Positions 9,138-14,824 of a stretch of 49,941 nucleotides of DNA are shown one piece after another (the first letter of the stretch is position 1; each line of letters begins with the position of its first letter). The notes under the pieces are model-generated. The model saw only the letters and a program-made list of their open reading frames with translations. It did not search any database and was not told where the DNA came from. Source of the DNA: a bacterium (GTDB lineage Bacteria; Armatimonadota; Zipacnadia; Zipacnadales; UBA11051); contig JAUVVY010000031.1 of assembly GCA_030604405.1 (NCBI GenBank), positions 1 through 49,941 on the forward strand. Reading direction: 5' to 3'. The translations under genes and the position numbers were made by a program.

Positions 9138-9203
9138 CGGCCTACGAGCGCCTGGGAATACGTCCGGCGACCGCCTTCAGAGTCTGCTCTTCGCCACCGC
9201 GAT
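9138..9203. repeat. 66-bp direct repeat, resident copy at the htrA 3' end
   Basis: The partner of 7492-7557. It covers the stop codon and the last roughly 20 codons of htrA, plus 4 bp beyond. The two copies are identical over 66 bp and are separated by 1,580 bp holding the trypsin/TPR gene. Confidence 0.9.
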
Positions 9204-10272
9204 CGATGACGAGCTCCAACTCGTCGTCGATGTTACGCTTAAGGATAGCTTGCCGCAACTCTTCACCGTTACCAATCTTGTCGTCATCAATGGACAGGAT
9301 GACATCAAAGCGGCGCAATCCGGCACGATGTGCCGGCCCGCCTTCGAACACGTGCATCACTACTACGCCCGCGTCGGTGGCCAGGCCGATCCAGTGCGCA
9401 AGGCCGGAGCTATTGGGCGTAATATCGCCGATACCGAGCCACGGCCCGCCGTGGACCAGGAAATGCGCCATCATCTTCGCCTCGTTGATCGGTATGGCAA
9501 AGCTGATGCCGATAGTGGTGGCCTCGCGGTTTGGCGAGAATATGGCGTAGTTGATGCCGATGGCCTGGCCGGCGAGGTTGAGCAGTGGCCCGCCACTGTT
9601 GCCCCGGTTGATGGCAGCATCGGTCTGGATCACATTGCGCTGGCGATCGGGGCCGACGGGACGGTAGCCCTTGGCGCTGACCACACCGACGGTGACAGTG
9701 CCGGTGTAGCCGAAGGGATTGCCCATGGCGACCACCCATTCACCGACCTTCACGCCGTCGCTGTCACCCAGCTCAAGGGCGGTCAGATCATCAGGCGCGT
9801 CCACAGGCTCCACGACGGCCAGGTCGGAGGCAATTTCTGCGCCGATCAGCTTCCCCTGGAATCTGCGCCCGTCAATGAGCTCGATTGTGATCTCCTGGGC
9901 ACCGGCCACGACATGGGCGTTGGTGAGGACCAGAAAGCGGTCCTCGTACTTGAATATGAAGCCGGACCCCAGCCCCGGCTGAGGCTGGGGACCCTGCAGG
10001 TATTCCCACATATTGCGCGGCTGGCTGGTGCTGATGGTCTCGATCCTGACCACAGCGGCCTCGGCCCGCGACACTGCCTCTACGATGGCGTTCTTTTCGG
10101 TCTTGATTTCCACTGTCGGACGAAGCGGGGGATAACTCAACTCGCCATCGTCGCCGGGGGCAGGGGTGCATAGCTGGCGGTAAAACGACGCACCCAGAAA
10201 GCCGCCGGCCAAGCCGACAATCAGTGCCATAATGAGCAAGGCCACCGGGCTAATTATCCTGTTGGATTGCAT
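9142..10272 (-). CDS. htrA: HtrA/DegQ-type serine protease with one PDZ domain
   Basis: 376 residues. An N-terminal membrane anchor (about 6-30) is followed by a trypsin-like domain with the complete catalytic triad: His120 (LTNAHVV), Asp150 (SDLAVVE) and Ser226 (RGNSGGPL). GNPFGYTGTVTVGVVSA is the usual core strand. A single PDZ domain occupies about 275-365 (GVVVMHVFEGGPAHRAGLRR). It is a periplasmic or extracytoplasmic, membrane-tethered protease that degrades misfolded proteins. GGGAGG precedes the ATG. It lies downstream of ribH on the same strand. Its 3' end is the duplicated segment, so this copy may have had its end rebuilt by the event that placed the trypsin/TPR gene. Confidence 0.92.
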   Translation of the reverse strand: MQSNRIISPVALLIMALIVGLAGGFLGASFYRQLCTPAPGDDGELSYPPLRPTVEIKTEKNAIVEAVSRAEAAVVRIETISTSQPRNMWEYLQGPQPQPGLGSGFIFKYEDRFLVLTNAHVVAGAQEITIELIDGRRFQGKLIGAEIASDLAVVEPVDAPDDLTALELGDSDGVKVGEWVVAMGNPFGYTGTVTVGVVSAKGYRPVGPDRQRNVIQTDAAINRGNSGGPLLNLAGQAIGINYAIFSPNREATTIGISFAIPINEAKMMAHFLVHGGPWLGIGDITPNSSGLAHWIGLATDAGVVVMHVFEGGPAHRAGLRRFDVILSIDDDKIGNGEELRQAILKRNIDDELELVIDRGGEEQTLKAVAGRIPRRS

Positions 10273-10337: not shown

Positions 10338-10802
10338 CTAGAGCTGTTTCATCACATTGGCTATCTCGATGGCGGTCACGGCCGCCTCGAAGCCACGGTT
10401 CGGCAAGCGAATGCCTGCCCGCTCGATAGCATCCTCCAGAGTCTCTGCGGTGACGACGCCGAAGATGACCGGAACACCGGTGTCCATGCCCGCCCTCGCC
10501 AGGCCCTTGGCGGCTTCGCCTGCCACGAAGTCGAAATGGGGTGTCGAGCCCCGGATCACCGCACCGATTGCGATCACCGCATCATAGTCGCCGCTTTCGG
10601 CCATTTTCCTGGCCGCCAGGGGCAGTTCGAAGCTACCCGGCACCCAGACCATAGTGATGTCGTCTTCATCGGCTCCGTGGCGGATCAGGGCGTCGATCGC
10701 GCCGTCCTTCAGCTTGCCGGTGATGAACTCATTGAAGCGGCTCACCAGCACACCGAATTTGAGACCCTTGGCTGCAAGATCACCAGCAATTTCCTGTCCC
10801 AT
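10338..10802 (-). CDS. ribH: 6,7-dimethyl-8-ribityllumazine synthase
   Basis: 154 residues, normal length. RibH condenses 5-amino-6-ribitylaminouracil with 3,4-dihydroxy-2-butanone 4-phosphate to form the lumazine precursor of riboflavin. Family marks are [52 protein letters not shown] with its active-site His, and [26 protein letters not shown] lies upstream of the ATG. It is encoded 28 bp after ribBA on the same strand and completes the riboflavin set. Confidence 0.95.
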
Positions 10803-10829: not shown

Positions 10830-12401
10830 TCAATCAAAGAATCGTATCCTTGAGCCCTCGACCCTCTCCGCACACCCCTCAGATACCAGAATGGCTCCCA
10901 CGTACGATGCGATAGCAGCTCTGGTGACATTGTGTTGTAACCACTCGCCCACGCTGCCAGTCGGGGGCTTCTCACGCGAAGTCCCAATGCTGACGGTACG
11001 CCCTGCGAACAGCCCGAGTAGCGCGGCGTACTGCTCGGCAGACACCTTAGCCGTGAAGCAGTAATCATGCCCGTAGTGAATTATCGTCCCCTCTGCGACG
11101 GAGCCGCTGTACTGGAAAGCGCTTCGCTTGGCCCAGGTTTCCAGGGTTGTCCTATCGTCGCCTGAGCAGGGCTGTCGCTCGCCCAGCAGGTGCCCCATTT
11201 TTTCTCTCTTGGTACGCAGATACTCGGCGTTATAGGGCGTCGGCGGGGCCTCGAGCGGAATCCGCTCCACAACCTCCAACCCGTAGCCGTCCATCGCCGT
11301 GTACTTGGCCGGGTTATTGGTCATCAGCCGCATCTTGGTAATGCCCAAATCCGCCAACACCTGCGCCCCGAGGCCGTAGTCGCGCATATCGGCCGGGAAG
11401 CCCAGCGCCTCGTTGGCCTCCACGGTATCGTAGCCGTTCTCCTGCAGGTGGTAGGCCTTGATCTTGTTAGCCAGGCCGATGCCGCGGCCCTCGTGGCTCG
11501 GGATATATATGACCACCCCGCAGCCGGCCTCTTCAATCGCCTTCAGGGCCGCATGTAGTTGCCAGCCGCAATCGCACTTCAGCGATCCCAGCACATCGCC
11601 GGTGACGCAGCCGGAATGAACCCGCACCAGCGGCGCCTCGCAGCTTCTCAGGTCGCCCTTGGTGATTGCTATATAGACGCCTTCGCCGAGTTTTGAAGTG
11701 TAGATTATGGCCTCGAAATCGCCGTGGATCGTGGGTAGATGAGCCGCGGCCTCGCGCGCCACCAACCGCTCGGTACGGCGTCGCAGTCTGATAATGTCGG
11801 CGATGGTGACGATCTGCAGGCCATCCGCTTCGGCGAATTCCTGCAGCGCCTCCATATCGGCCACGGTACCATCCGGGCTGAGAATCTGGCACAGGACACC
11901 GGCGGGATAAAGCCCGGCCAGTCGCGCCAGATCAACGGCGGCTTCGGTGTGCCTGACGCGGGCCAGCGTGCCGCCTTCGGCCGCGCGGATGGGGAAGACG
12001 TGCCCGGGACGGACCACGTCAGCGGGCCGAGTATCCTCACAGATAAGCAACTGGATGGTCCTTGCCCGGTCGCCGGCCGTGTCCCCGGACACGATGCCCT
12101 CGGCGGCGTCAACAGATACGGTGAAGGCGGGGCCGGAGCGGCCCTGCTCCGTGATGCGTCCGCGCGGATCGCCGCCGGCCATTGGCGGAATATCCAGCTC
12201 ATCGAGGCGCTGGCCGGTCAGAGCCACGCACAGCATCCCGCGGCCCTTAGTCATCATGTAGTTGATGGCCGCCGCGTAGGCGAATTCCGCCCCGATGATC
12301 AGGTCGCCGGTGTTGTAGTCATCGGCCTCGTCAACAACGATGACGAATTTGCCCTGTTCGATGTCCTGTAATGCTTCCTGTATGTTTCCAGGCATATACA
12401 T
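10830..12401 (-). CDS. ribBA: RibBA-type protein: degenerate DHBP synthase half, intact GTP cyclohydrolase II, extra C-terminal domain
   Basis: 523 residues, whereas RibBA is usually about 400. The N-terminal half (1-205) has the RibB fold, but the canonical RENEGD acid cluster reads DYNTGD (residues 28-33). The GGHTEA motif reads VRHTEA, the CEL glutamate is Gln in CQIL, and the MAR segment is VAD. The Cys (MLCVAL) and the GHVFP histidine remain. The RibA half (about 210-405) looks intact, with the zinc cysteines in SGCVTGDVLGSLKCDCG, then EGRGIGLANKIKAYHLQ and RLMTNNPAKY. Residues about 407-523 form an added tail (HYGHDYCFTAKVSAEQY, GSVGEWLQHNVTRAAIASYV) of a type I do not recognise. GTP cyclohydrolase II activity is likely; DHBP synthase activity is doubtful. 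Confidence 0.88.
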   Translation of the reverse strand: MYMPGNIQEALQDIEQGKFVIVVDEADDYNTGDLIIGAEFAYAAAINYMMTKGRGMLCVALTGQRLDELDIPPMAGGDPRGRITEQGRSGPAFTVSVDAAEGIVSGDTAGDRARTIQLLICEDTRPADVVRPGHVFPIRAAEGGTLARVRHTEAAVDLARLAGLYPAGVLCQILSPDGTVADMEALQEFAEADGLQIVTIADIIRLRRRTERLVAREAAAHLPTIHGDFEAIIYTSKLGEGVYIAITKGDLRSCEAPLVRVHSGCVTGDVLGSLKCDCGWQLHAALKAIEEAGCGVVIYIPSHEGRGIGLANKIKAYHLQENGYDTVEANEALGFPADMRDYGLGAQVLADLGITKMRLMTNNPAKYTAMDGYGLEVVERIPLEAPPTPYNAEYLRTKREKMGHLLGERQPCSGDDRTTLETWAKRSAFQYSGSVAEGTIIHYGHDYCFTAKVSAEQYAALLGLFAGRTVSIGTSREKPPTGSVGEWLQHNVTRAAIASYVGAILVSEGCAERVEGSRIRFFD

Positions 12402-12434: not shown

Positions 12435-12600
12435 CCCGTAGGTCGGGCTTGCTCATTACTATCCCGTAGGTCGGGCATCGCCATTAGTATTCCGTAGGTC
12501 GGGCATCGCTATTAGTATTCCGTAGGTCGGGCTTTCCAGCCCGACACCCGTTGCTTCCAGGAGTGCTGGATGCCGGACGGGCTAGAAAGCCCGTCCTACG
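12435..12600. repeat. Cluster of GTAGG-hairpin repeats: tandem 28-29-bp units then an inverted pair
   Basis: Three tandem units start at 12435, 12463 and 12492. Each has (C)CCGTAGGTCGGGC followed by a divergent tail; the second and third tails are nearly identical (ATCGC[CT]ATTAGTATT). A full hairpin copy follows (12522-12545, arms TCGGGCT/AGCCCGA). An inverted copy at 12576-12599 reads, on the minus strand, GTAGG then ACGGGCT/AGCCCGT. The forward-plus-inverted pairing resembles the BIME arrangement of REP sequences. It fills most of the 257-bp gap between ribE and ribBA. Confidence 0.8.
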
Positions 12601-12658
12601 CGGCAGTTCGGTATCTTTTCGATCTCAAGAGATGCTAGTGGCTGCCAGCCCGACATCG

Positions 12659-13318
12659 TCAACTGATAAATCCATTCTCCCGCAGGAACTGCTCGGTAAT
12701 GCCACCACCGGGCTGGGCCGTTGCAGCATCGGCGCTGGCCAGGCTTCTGCGGACGTACTTGGCCAGGATGTCGAGCTCGACATTGACCTCATCGCCGGCC
12801 TTGATCCGGGGCAAAGTCGTTTTGGCCATGGTGTGCGGGATAATGGCTACGGAAAAGCCGCTATCTGTTGCTGCCGTGACGGTCAGGCTGATGCCGTCAA
12901 CAGCGATGCTGCCCTTTTCCACCACGTAGATCATCTGCTCGGCCCGGATGTCAAAGCTGTAATGGACAGTCTCGCCCTCGGGACGGCGGCTGGTGCAGAT
13001 ACCGACGCAGTCAACGTGGCCTTGAACGAAGTGCCCGCCCAGCCGGTCAGATGGCCTCAGCGCCGTCTCCAGGTTGATGAGTTGTCCGCTCCGCCAACTC
13101 TGCAGCGTGGTGTGGCGCATTGTTTCGGCTCCGGCATGGGTCTCAAAGCTGTCGCTGGTGAGCCGCTCGATGGTCAGACACACTCCGTTGCAGGCGATGC
13201 TGTCGCCGACATCTGAATCAGCGACGATCCCCGGAGCGTGGATGCGCAACTGCACTCCGGACGAGCGAGCGCTTGCCTGCAGCAGTTTGCCGGTCTCCTG
13301 GATCAGTCCTGTGAACAT
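12659..13318 (-). CDS. ribE: Riboflavin synthase, alpha chain
   Basis: 219 residues made of two lumazine-binding barrels. The N-terminus MFTGLIQETGKLL is diagnostic, and SIACNGVCLTIERL and DGISLTVT are the conserved barrel motifs of the two halves. The enzyme dismutates two 6,7-dimethyl-8-ribityllumazine molecules into riboflavin and 5-amino-6-ribitylaminouracil. Its ATG lies 16 nt inside the 3' end of ribD, so translation is probably coupled. The gene name follows the common usage ribE for riboflavin synthase (ribC in E. coli). Confidence 0.95.
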   Translation of the reverse strand: MFTGLIQETGKLLQASARSSGVQLRIHAPGIVADSDVGDSIACNGVCLTIERLTSDSFETHAGAETMRHTTLQSWRSGQLINLETALRPSDRLGGHFVQGHVDCVGICTSRRPEGETVHYSFDIRAEQMIYVVEKGSIAVDGISLTVTAATDSGFSVAIIPHTMAKTTLPRIKAGDEVNVELDILAKYVRRSLASADAATAQPGGGITEQFLRENGFIS

Positions 13319-14433
13319 ATCCGGCCTCTAATCATCAAGTCAGGTCCCACCCGGCGCGTCTCGACGATCTCCAGCCTGGCGGCGTCGGCAAGCTCGCCTA
13401 TTTCCAGGTCGGCTACCGGTCCCGGTCCCTGGCCAAGCAGCTTGGGCGCTACGAAAAATACCACCTCATCCGCCAGCGCCTCTCTTATCAAAGCTGCGGC
13501 CAGCGTCGGCCCGCCCTCGCACAGAATGCTGATGACATCGCTGGCGCCCAGTTGTCTCATCAAAGCGCCGAGGTCCACCCGGCCATCTTTTTCAGGCACA
13601 GTCAGGACCTTGGCTCCTGCTTGCCGCAGGGCCTCGATTCTGCCAGCGTCGGCCCCTTCGCAGCAGGCCACCAGACATTCCGTTCCATCCGCCCGCTGCC
13701 CCTCCGCGTGGCTCGGGCTTCCAGCCCGAGTCCTTGACAGAGCCTTGGCCGTTGGCGGCGTACGGGCACTGCTGTCAACTATCAGCGCGCCAGAGCAATG
13801 ACACCCCTCGCCGAGTCGCGTGGTGAGGCTGGGGTCATCGGCCAGCACGGTCCCTACGCCGACCATGACAAGTTGCACTTGGCTGCGCATTTCGTGAACG
13901 GCCCTGCGCGCCTCCGGCCCGGTAATCCACTGCGAGCTGCCGTCGGCCATGGCGACTCTGCCGTCCAGCGTCATAGCCATCTTGAGTGTTACGTATGGCA
14001 GGCCGGTGGCCTTGTGTTTGAAATAGGCCCGGTTCAGTTGCTTAGCGCTATTGCCCAGCGGGCCCTGGAAGACCTCGCAGCCCGCGGCGACCAGTGCACT
14101 GTGCCCGCCGCCTGCGACCTGGGGATTAGGGTCCTCGCACGCGTAAAAGACTCTCCTTATCCCTGCTGCAACGACCGCCTCTGTGCAGGGAGGTGTGCGC
14201 CCGTGGTGACAGCACGGTTCGAGTGTCACGTAGATGTCTGCGCCGCGGGCCGCATCCCCGGCCTCCTGCAGCGCCAGCACCTCGGCATGCGGCTGACCGG
14301 CGGCTGAGTGGTAGCCCTCGCCGATGATTTTCGTGTCTTTGACGACAACCGCACCGACGGCGGGATTAGGCGCAGTTCTGCCCAGGCCCATGGCCGCCAG
14401 CGTCAAAGCCCTGCGCATATAAGAGCGGTGCAT
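13303..14433 (-). CDS. ribD: Bifunctional deaminase/reductase of riboflavin synthesis
   Basis: About 376 residues from the ATG at 14433 (MHRSYMRRALTLA); an upstream frame start at 14487 would add 18 atypical residues. The N-terminal deaminase holds the zinc site HAEV and PCCHHGRTPPC. The C-terminal reductase begins at YVTLKMAMTLDGRVA and includes SILCEGGPTLAAALI. RibD deaminates the pyrimidine product of GTP cyclohydrolase II and reduces its ribosyl side chain. Between ALSR and TECLVAC the reductase carries an extra stretch of about 15 residues (TRAGSPSHAEGQRADG). This stretch contains a GTGG-type hairpin repeat at DNA level (13708-13730). The gene overlaps ribE by 16 nt. Confidence 0.93.
   Translation of the reverse strand: MHRSYMRRALTLAAMGLGRTAPNPAVGAVVVKDTKIIGEGYHSAAGQPHAEVLALQEAGDAARGADIYVTLEPCCHHGRTPPCTEAVVAAGIRRVFYACEDPNPQVAGGGHSALVAAGCEVFQGPLGNSAKQLNRAYFKHKATGLPYVTLKMAMTLDGRVAMADGSSQWITGPEARRAVHEMRSQVQLVMVGVGTVLADDPSLTTRLGEGCHCSGALIVDSSARTPPTAKALSRTRAGSPSHAEGQRADGTECLVACCEGADAGRIEALRQAGAKVLTVPEKDGRVDLGALMRQLGASDVISILCEGGPTLAAALIREALADEVVFFVAPKLLGQGPGPVADLEIGELADAARLEIVETRRVGPDLMIRGRICSQD
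13708..13730. repeat. Hairpin repeat inside the ribD coding sequence
   Basis: GTGG is followed by CTCGGGCT, a 3-nt loop and AGCCCGAG. The arms match the interspersed GTAGG-hairpin family in sequence and design. It is translated in frame as part of TRAGSPSH and falls in a loop between reductase core strands, which a short insertion is likely to tolerate. Confidence 0.65.
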
Positions 14434-14437
14434 CTGC

Positions 14438-14824
14438 CTAATTATCCTCTTCCGGCTGCTCCTGGTCCTTGCGGACCTCCTGTTCATCCCGAAGAACGCC
14501 GGTGTAGAGCCTGGCTTGTCTCAGCTCGCCGATCACCTGGGTCTCTTTGAGGTCAATGTAGGCCACAACGATGACCATCAGCGGCAGCAGAGTCAATACG
14601 GCCCAGAAGATGAGCTCGTGCAGCGGGTCGCTCCACTCGTGCGCCAGGCCGTAGTAGATCATCCCGACGATAATCAAGAGTAGCGCGCCGCAGACGATGC
14701 GCAGTCCCAACTGCCGAGGGCTGATGATGCTACGCCCGCGTGTGAAGGCATTGATCTGCAGGGCCATGGCGATGCCGATGACCACGGCCATCACAAGCAG
14801 GATTACGCCGACCGCATACGTCAT
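14438..14824 (-). CDS. Small multi-pass membrane protein of unknown function
   Basis: 128 residues with three predicted membrane segments: about 3-25 (YAVGVILLVMAVVIGIAMAL), about 42-62 (IVCGALLLIIVGMIYYGL) and about 72-95 (ELIFWAVLTLLPLMVIVVAYI). A charged cytosolic tail is rich in Glu, Asp and Gln (VLRDEQEVRKDQEQPEEDN). I do not recognise a family. GGAGG lies 7 nt before the ATG at 14824, which rules out longer frames. It sits between mutL and ribD on the same strand; its stop is 4 bp from the ribD start, so it is probably co-transcribed with ribD. Confidence 0.7.
   Translation of the reverse strand: MTYAVGVILLVMAVVIGIAMALQINAFTRGRSIISPRQLGLRIVCGALLLIIVGMIYYGLAHEWSDPLHELIFWAVLTLLPLMVIVVAYIDLKETQVIGELRQARLYTGVLRDEQEVRKDQEQPEEDN

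Follow-up and report, generated by a model that had tools for sequence, protein, structure and literature searches.

A bacterial RibBA with a degenerate RibB half and a private C-terminal extension: a candidate monofunctional GTP cyclohydrolase II in Armatimonadota

Introduction

The 49,941-nucleotide stretch of DNA analyzed here (hereafter, the window) encodes a RibBA-type fusion of dihydroxybutanone phosphate (DHBP) synthase (RibB) and GTP cyclohydrolase II (GCHII) in which canonical residues of the RibB half are replaced. This raises the question of whether the protein still makes DHBP and, if it does not, where DHBP comes from and why the inactive half is kept. Annotation pipelines would call such a protein bifunctional. 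In the literature that we searched, which takes in a minority of subscription papers, no bacterial RibBA was reported whose RibB half is dead, and the paper describing this bacterial group makes no mention of riboflavin. The closest relatives that bear a name are Armatimonadota listed as Candidatus Zipacnadia or as candidate division WS1, and the order is accordingly taken as Zipacnadales.

Gene, Domains, and Riboflavin Cluster

The RibBA gene (positions 10830..12401) lies on the minus strand, which the earlier note on this DNA had left unstated, and encodes 523 amino acids. These comprise a degenerate RibB domain (residues 6-205; 11787..12386, minus), a GCHII domain (residues 216-406; 11184..11756, minus), and a C-terminal extension (residues 407-523; 10833..11183, minus). 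Pfam models matched far over their cut-offs to the two known domains (PF00926 at residues 8-205, with 213 bits, and PF00925 at 217-382) and did not match the extension. A RibB domain followed by a GCHII domain in one chain is the order of bifunctional RibBA. By sequence, the nearest solved structure is PDB 4i14, which we take to be Mycobacterium tuberculosis RibBA (Rv1415), with a full-length alignment of 392.7 bits.

RibBA is flanked by ribD (deaminase/reductase; 13303..14487) and ribE (riboflavin synthase; 12659..13318) upstream and by ribH (lumazine synthase; 10338..10802) as the next gene downstream, all assigned from sequence and position and all on the minus strand. The genome further contains a gene for a ribF-type FAD synthetase. 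An FMN riboswitch was detected neither at the RibBA locus nor in any of the seven genomes searched, and a mir-3160 match at 12520-12601 scored under its gathering threshold and was rejected as chance. The gap between ribE and RibBA contains a 28-bp unit in 3.5 copies (12435-12532); its core, GCCCGACCTACGGRWTA, is absent elsewhere in the genome, and a related 22-mer has one further occurrence, at 984-1005. Downstream of ribH is a gene for an HtrA-like serine protease (9142-10272), and the gene family to which it belongs also adjoins the rib clusters of genomes G041 and G066.

Residues Lost and Kept in the Two Halves

Alignment of the RibB half to Escherichia coli RibB revealed the replacements that the earlier note had read by eye in the RENEGD, CEL, and MAR motifs. 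The loop-1 catalytic motif DDEDRENEGD is DEADDYNTGD (residues 24-33; 12303..12332, minus), which corresponds to R37D, E38Y, and E40T with Asp42 kept; CEL is CQI (E174Q), with Q172 of the window protein (codon at 11886..11888, minus) at the position of catalytic E174; and MAR is VAD (R184D). Loop-2 Asn87 is also gone. The substitution of the GHTEA glycine by arginine (RHTEA; G152R) is present as claimed, but it is outside the common pattern, since only 2 of 30 relatives carry it. Thus, among the DHBP synthase residues R37, E38, E40, D42, H153, and E174, only D42 and H153 are kept. In Vibrio cholerae RibB, the equivalents of E38, E40, and H153 are catalytic and their mutation abolishes activity, and Arg37 ion-pairs with the phosphate of ribulose 5-phosphate (Ru5P) (PMC5228156). 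The claim that this RibBA no longer synthesizes DHBP is strongly supported at the level of sequence.

The GCHII half is intact, as had been proposed. Cys54, Cys65, and Cys67, which bind zinc, and the catalytic Tyr105 and Arg128 of E. coli RibA are kept as C265, C276, C278, Y317, and R340, as in bifunctional RibBA. A search of the genome identified no GCHII other than the one in RibBA.

Distribution of Degenerate RibBA

RibBA was identified in 33 of 41 genomes of the order and is degenerate wherever the motif could be read. Among readable RibBAs of the main group, R37, E40, and E174 are each kept in 0/29, R184 in 0%, and E38 in 3%. In contrast, R37, E38, E40, and E174 are all kept in 83/83 canonical RibBAs and in 38/38 readable stand-alone RibBs of the order, and canonical RibBAs elsewhere in the phylum retain these residues with few scattered exceptions. 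Chance is excluded as an explanation for the motif loss, since 29-30 readable main-group RibBAs have lost these same positions, as against 0/83 canonical ones; a sequencing error is likewise ruled out by the recurrence of the loss in about 30 relatives. The replacements at positions 37, 38, 40, and 174 differ among relatives (e.g., E38 is Q, G, H, P, R, or T), as would be expected of positions released from constraint.

Other positions are fixed. D42, H136, R150, H153, T154, and E155 do not vary within the main group, and R133 is either R or K. At position 109, in the loop-4 lid, Asp occurs in 30/30 main-group proteins but in 0/83 canonical RibBAs and 0/39 stand-alone RibBs; canonical enzymes have Ile or Val, rarely Ala.

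Several RibBAs depart from the main group. Those of family f4 (G009 and G014) are also degenerate, with other replacements, and co-occur with a different stand-alone RibB. G041, from the same class and another family, encodes a degenerate RibBA with the motifs DEENRSRQGD and CQI in its rib cluster (C35:159901-160473; L158, L229), and no credible second RibB was matched at E up to 10 in this 95%-complete, 90-contig draft. Partly degenerate cases were also identified in G066 and in the second copy of G061. The exceptions in G041, G066, and the second copy of G061 could be independent losses. The RibBA of G031 (C72:198007-199156; L195) is split over three frames, through either real frameshifts or assembly error.

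In a tree computed without plant sequences, the closest relatives of the window RibBA were other Armatimonadota. Phylogenetic reconstruction of the RibB domain joined the degenerate RibBAs (SH-aLRT 93), except for the second copy of G061, with long branches involved. The GCHII tree, which is distorted by one stray RibB-MqnC row, separated G041, G066, and family f4 from the main group. Both a single origin and several origins of the degenerate RibBAs are compatible with the trees.

A Second, Stand-Alone RibB

The earlier note had predicted a further RibB in the genome, and a genome search recovered one. It is a 210-residue stand-alone protein (contig C56, 9730-10302; L002, L216) with intact REGEAD and CEI motifs. 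The protein is atypical in that REGEAD replaces RENEGD, about four residues are missing before loop 4, and its score is under the TIGR00506 cut-off. A stand-alone RibB locus accompanies the degenerate RibBA in 33/33 genomes of the order, a few of them represented only by fragments at contig ends; the remaining genomes, mostly incomplete drafts, have the stand-alone gene alone or neither. Outside the order, only 3 of 232 RibB-bearing genomes of the phylum encode two RibBs. The stand-alone RibBs group in a single clade (SH-aLRT 99) that is not nested in the degenerate RibBAs and, therefore, they did not arise from these by recent copying.

A gene for an EamA-family permease was identified near the stand-alone RibB in 12 of 14 sampled neighborhoods and is directly adjacent in 11; NCBIfam gave it only generic exporter matches, below cut-off. 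RibN-family riboflavin importers are of the same general kind as EamA permeases. On C56, the permease gene is adjacent to RibB, with a gene for a flavin-reductase-like protein at a distance of about 1.6 kb. In G066, a stand-alone-type RibB and MqnC (cyclic dehypoxanthinyl futalosine synthase; TIGR03699, 467.6 bits, over cut-off) are fused in one 599-residue frame (C264:5064-6860; L228). The fusion gene adjoins MqnE, and the same genome holds a degenerate RibBA.

Role of the Retained RibB Domain

The degenerate domain has its full length in all complete relatives, which span six families, and its structure was predicted with a pLDDT of mostly 85-96 outside a loop at residues 75-93. Its dN/dS in close pairs is 0.06-0.21, and of the 50 columns that are invariant in canonical enzymes, 28 remain conserved at 90% or more. 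Over all pairs, the ratio of non-synonymous divergence between the RibB and GCHII domains (pN ratio) is 1.62 here versus 1.09 in canonical RibBAs. The domain is under relaxed constraint, yet purifying selection clearly maintains it, and it retains part of the Ru5P pocket.

We consider it very probable that this RibBA acts as a GCHII only, that its RibB domain is a pseudoenzyme, and that RibB activity is supplied in trans. The N-terminal domain would keep the RibB fold and part of the Ru5P pocket and would be unable to make DHBP because the metal and catalytic acid residues are lost. DHBP would instead be supplied by the intact RibB from a different locus of the genome. Because a separate gene carries an intact RibB, the dead head would be kept for another job. 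The domain may be retained because the GCHII half evolved to fold and dimerize on it, and it probably serves as such a scaffold. Counting against the GCHII-only reading are the persistence of H153, D42, R150, T154, and E155, with which some residual or altered activity would be compatible, the exception in the 95%-complete draft of G041, and the atypical nature of the second RibB itself.

A role as scaffold is the most likely reason for retention; a less likely one, which we regard as a real but minority possibility, is that the pseudo-RibB domain binds Ru5P (or DHBP) and allosterically regulates GCHII, thereby matching the GTP and pentose branches of the pathway. The invariance of D42, H136, R150, H153, T154, and E155 while metal and acid residues are gone is consistent with a binding function, as is the new invariant Asp109 in the loop-4 lid, and RibBX offers a precedent for a dead half regulating a live one (PMC10012899). 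Yet Arg37, the partner of the Ru5P phosphate (PMC5228156), and loop-2 Asn87 are both lost, the conserved pocket residues may be structural, and the domain evolves 1.6x faster than GCHII, against 1.1x in canonical RibBAs. The more specific proposal, that the domain is an order-wide sugar-phosphate sensor regulating GCHII, a mirror image of RibBX marked by the lid Asp109, is slightly more doubtful again.

The same data bear on two further readings. Were the domain merely decaying toward loss, the elevated non-synonymous rate relative to GCHII would be accounted for, but its full length in all complete relatives of six families, a close-pair dN/dS far below 1, and the emergence of a new invariant residue make this quite improbable. 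Least probable of all is that the RibB half is still active through a changed mechanism, with His153 and Asp42 acting with a different metal or base. The invariance of H153, D42, and E155 under purifying selection, along with the persistence of R150 and T154, would fit such an activity, as would the degenerate RibBA of G041, for which another RibB was not found in the 95%-complete draft. The variability of the replacements at positions 37, 38, 40, and 174 is, however, unlike an active site, and a second RibB co-occurs in every genome of the order with a degenerate RibBA.

Origin of the C-Terminal Extension

The earlier note had placed an extra domain at residues of about 407-523; this domain is real, and it continues the reading frame of RibBA. 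In the sister genome G001, RibBA (93% identical over residues 62-410) stops seven residues past the last shared residue, and the sequence just before ribH is common to G001 and the window; the tail is therefore a clean insertion, unique to this genome, that separates RibBA from ribH. It is missing from all other RibBAs of the order, including that of G001, and so the death of the RibB half and the gain of the tail are unrelated events. The earlier suggestion that the tail regulates the cyclohydrolase found no support, given that the tail is private to this genome. A role as regulator of the dead-RibB system is ruled out by its absence from every other member of the order.

Relatives of the tail among 291 genomes of the phylum are limited to three free-standing genes from family f6 of the same order, which are 39-47% identical to it. 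These encode proteins of about 105 residues (L035, L036, L037) whose neighbors are unrelated to riboflavin; they have a PmoA-like gene on one side and a gene similar to glycoside hydrolases on the other, both read by eye. The three relatives scored 13-15 bits against a DUF6855 cut-off of 27, and the window tail did not score; an hhalign probability of 60% over the last 55 columns makes this a very weak link. Folded alone, the tail was predicted with a pLDDT of 90, whereas in the full-length model it has low confidence and the joining stretch looks flexible. A Foldseek search of the tail model against the PDB returned no significant match. Its weak matches included several winged-helix proteins (regulators), and the resemblance of the predicted fold to these is only a hint. 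Viral contigs, phages, and plasmids yielded zero matches, and an origin as phage or plasmid cargo was rejected.

The G+C content of the tail is 59%, versus 63% in the rest of the gene. The tail is a recent addition by gene fusion. Misassembly is a formal possibility, but it would require two breaks that both keep the frame.

Comparison With Known Systems

The window protein shares its domain order and a full-length alignment with M. tuberculosis RibBA (Rv1415, 4i14) but lacks the catalytic RibB residues and has the extra C-terminal domain. The RibBA-type chain of PDB 6mnz has the same fusion architecture with one half diverged; there, in contrast, it is the GCHII half that lacks the zinc cysteines in the alignment, and RibB keeps DDEDRENEGD.

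The protein also parallels plant RIBA3. In Arabidopsis RIBA3, GCHII is active and DHBP synthase inactive by both assay and complementation (PMC3509567). The window protein is similarly bipartite, with substitutions confined to the DHBP synthase half and the GCHII residues intact, a likeness of state and not of descent. Unlike plants, where the bifunctional RIBA1 persists, this genome has no intact RibBA, and its RibB is a separate paralogue.

RibBX has been described from Shewanella, Aeromonas, and Bradyrhizobium (Brutinel et al., 2013, as cited in PMC10012899), and PMC10012899 reports that the dead X domain of the Shewanella protein regulates its RibB partner. As in proteobacterial RibBX, a RibBA-type fusion in a rib operon has one half degenerate and the missing activity is encoded elsewhere. 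The halves are reversed, however: RibBX has a dead RibA half and an active RibB, while here RibB is dead and RibA intact. Our findings point to the stand-alone RibB, an atypical protein whose gene has a conserved permease neighbor, as the enzyme that actually provides DHBP in these uncultured bacteria. They also make the reason that RibBA fusions persist, whether activity coupling, scaffolding, or regulation, a testable matter. The order provides a natural experiment, the mirror of RibBX, in that a fused enzyme had one of its halves inactivated and yet kept that half.
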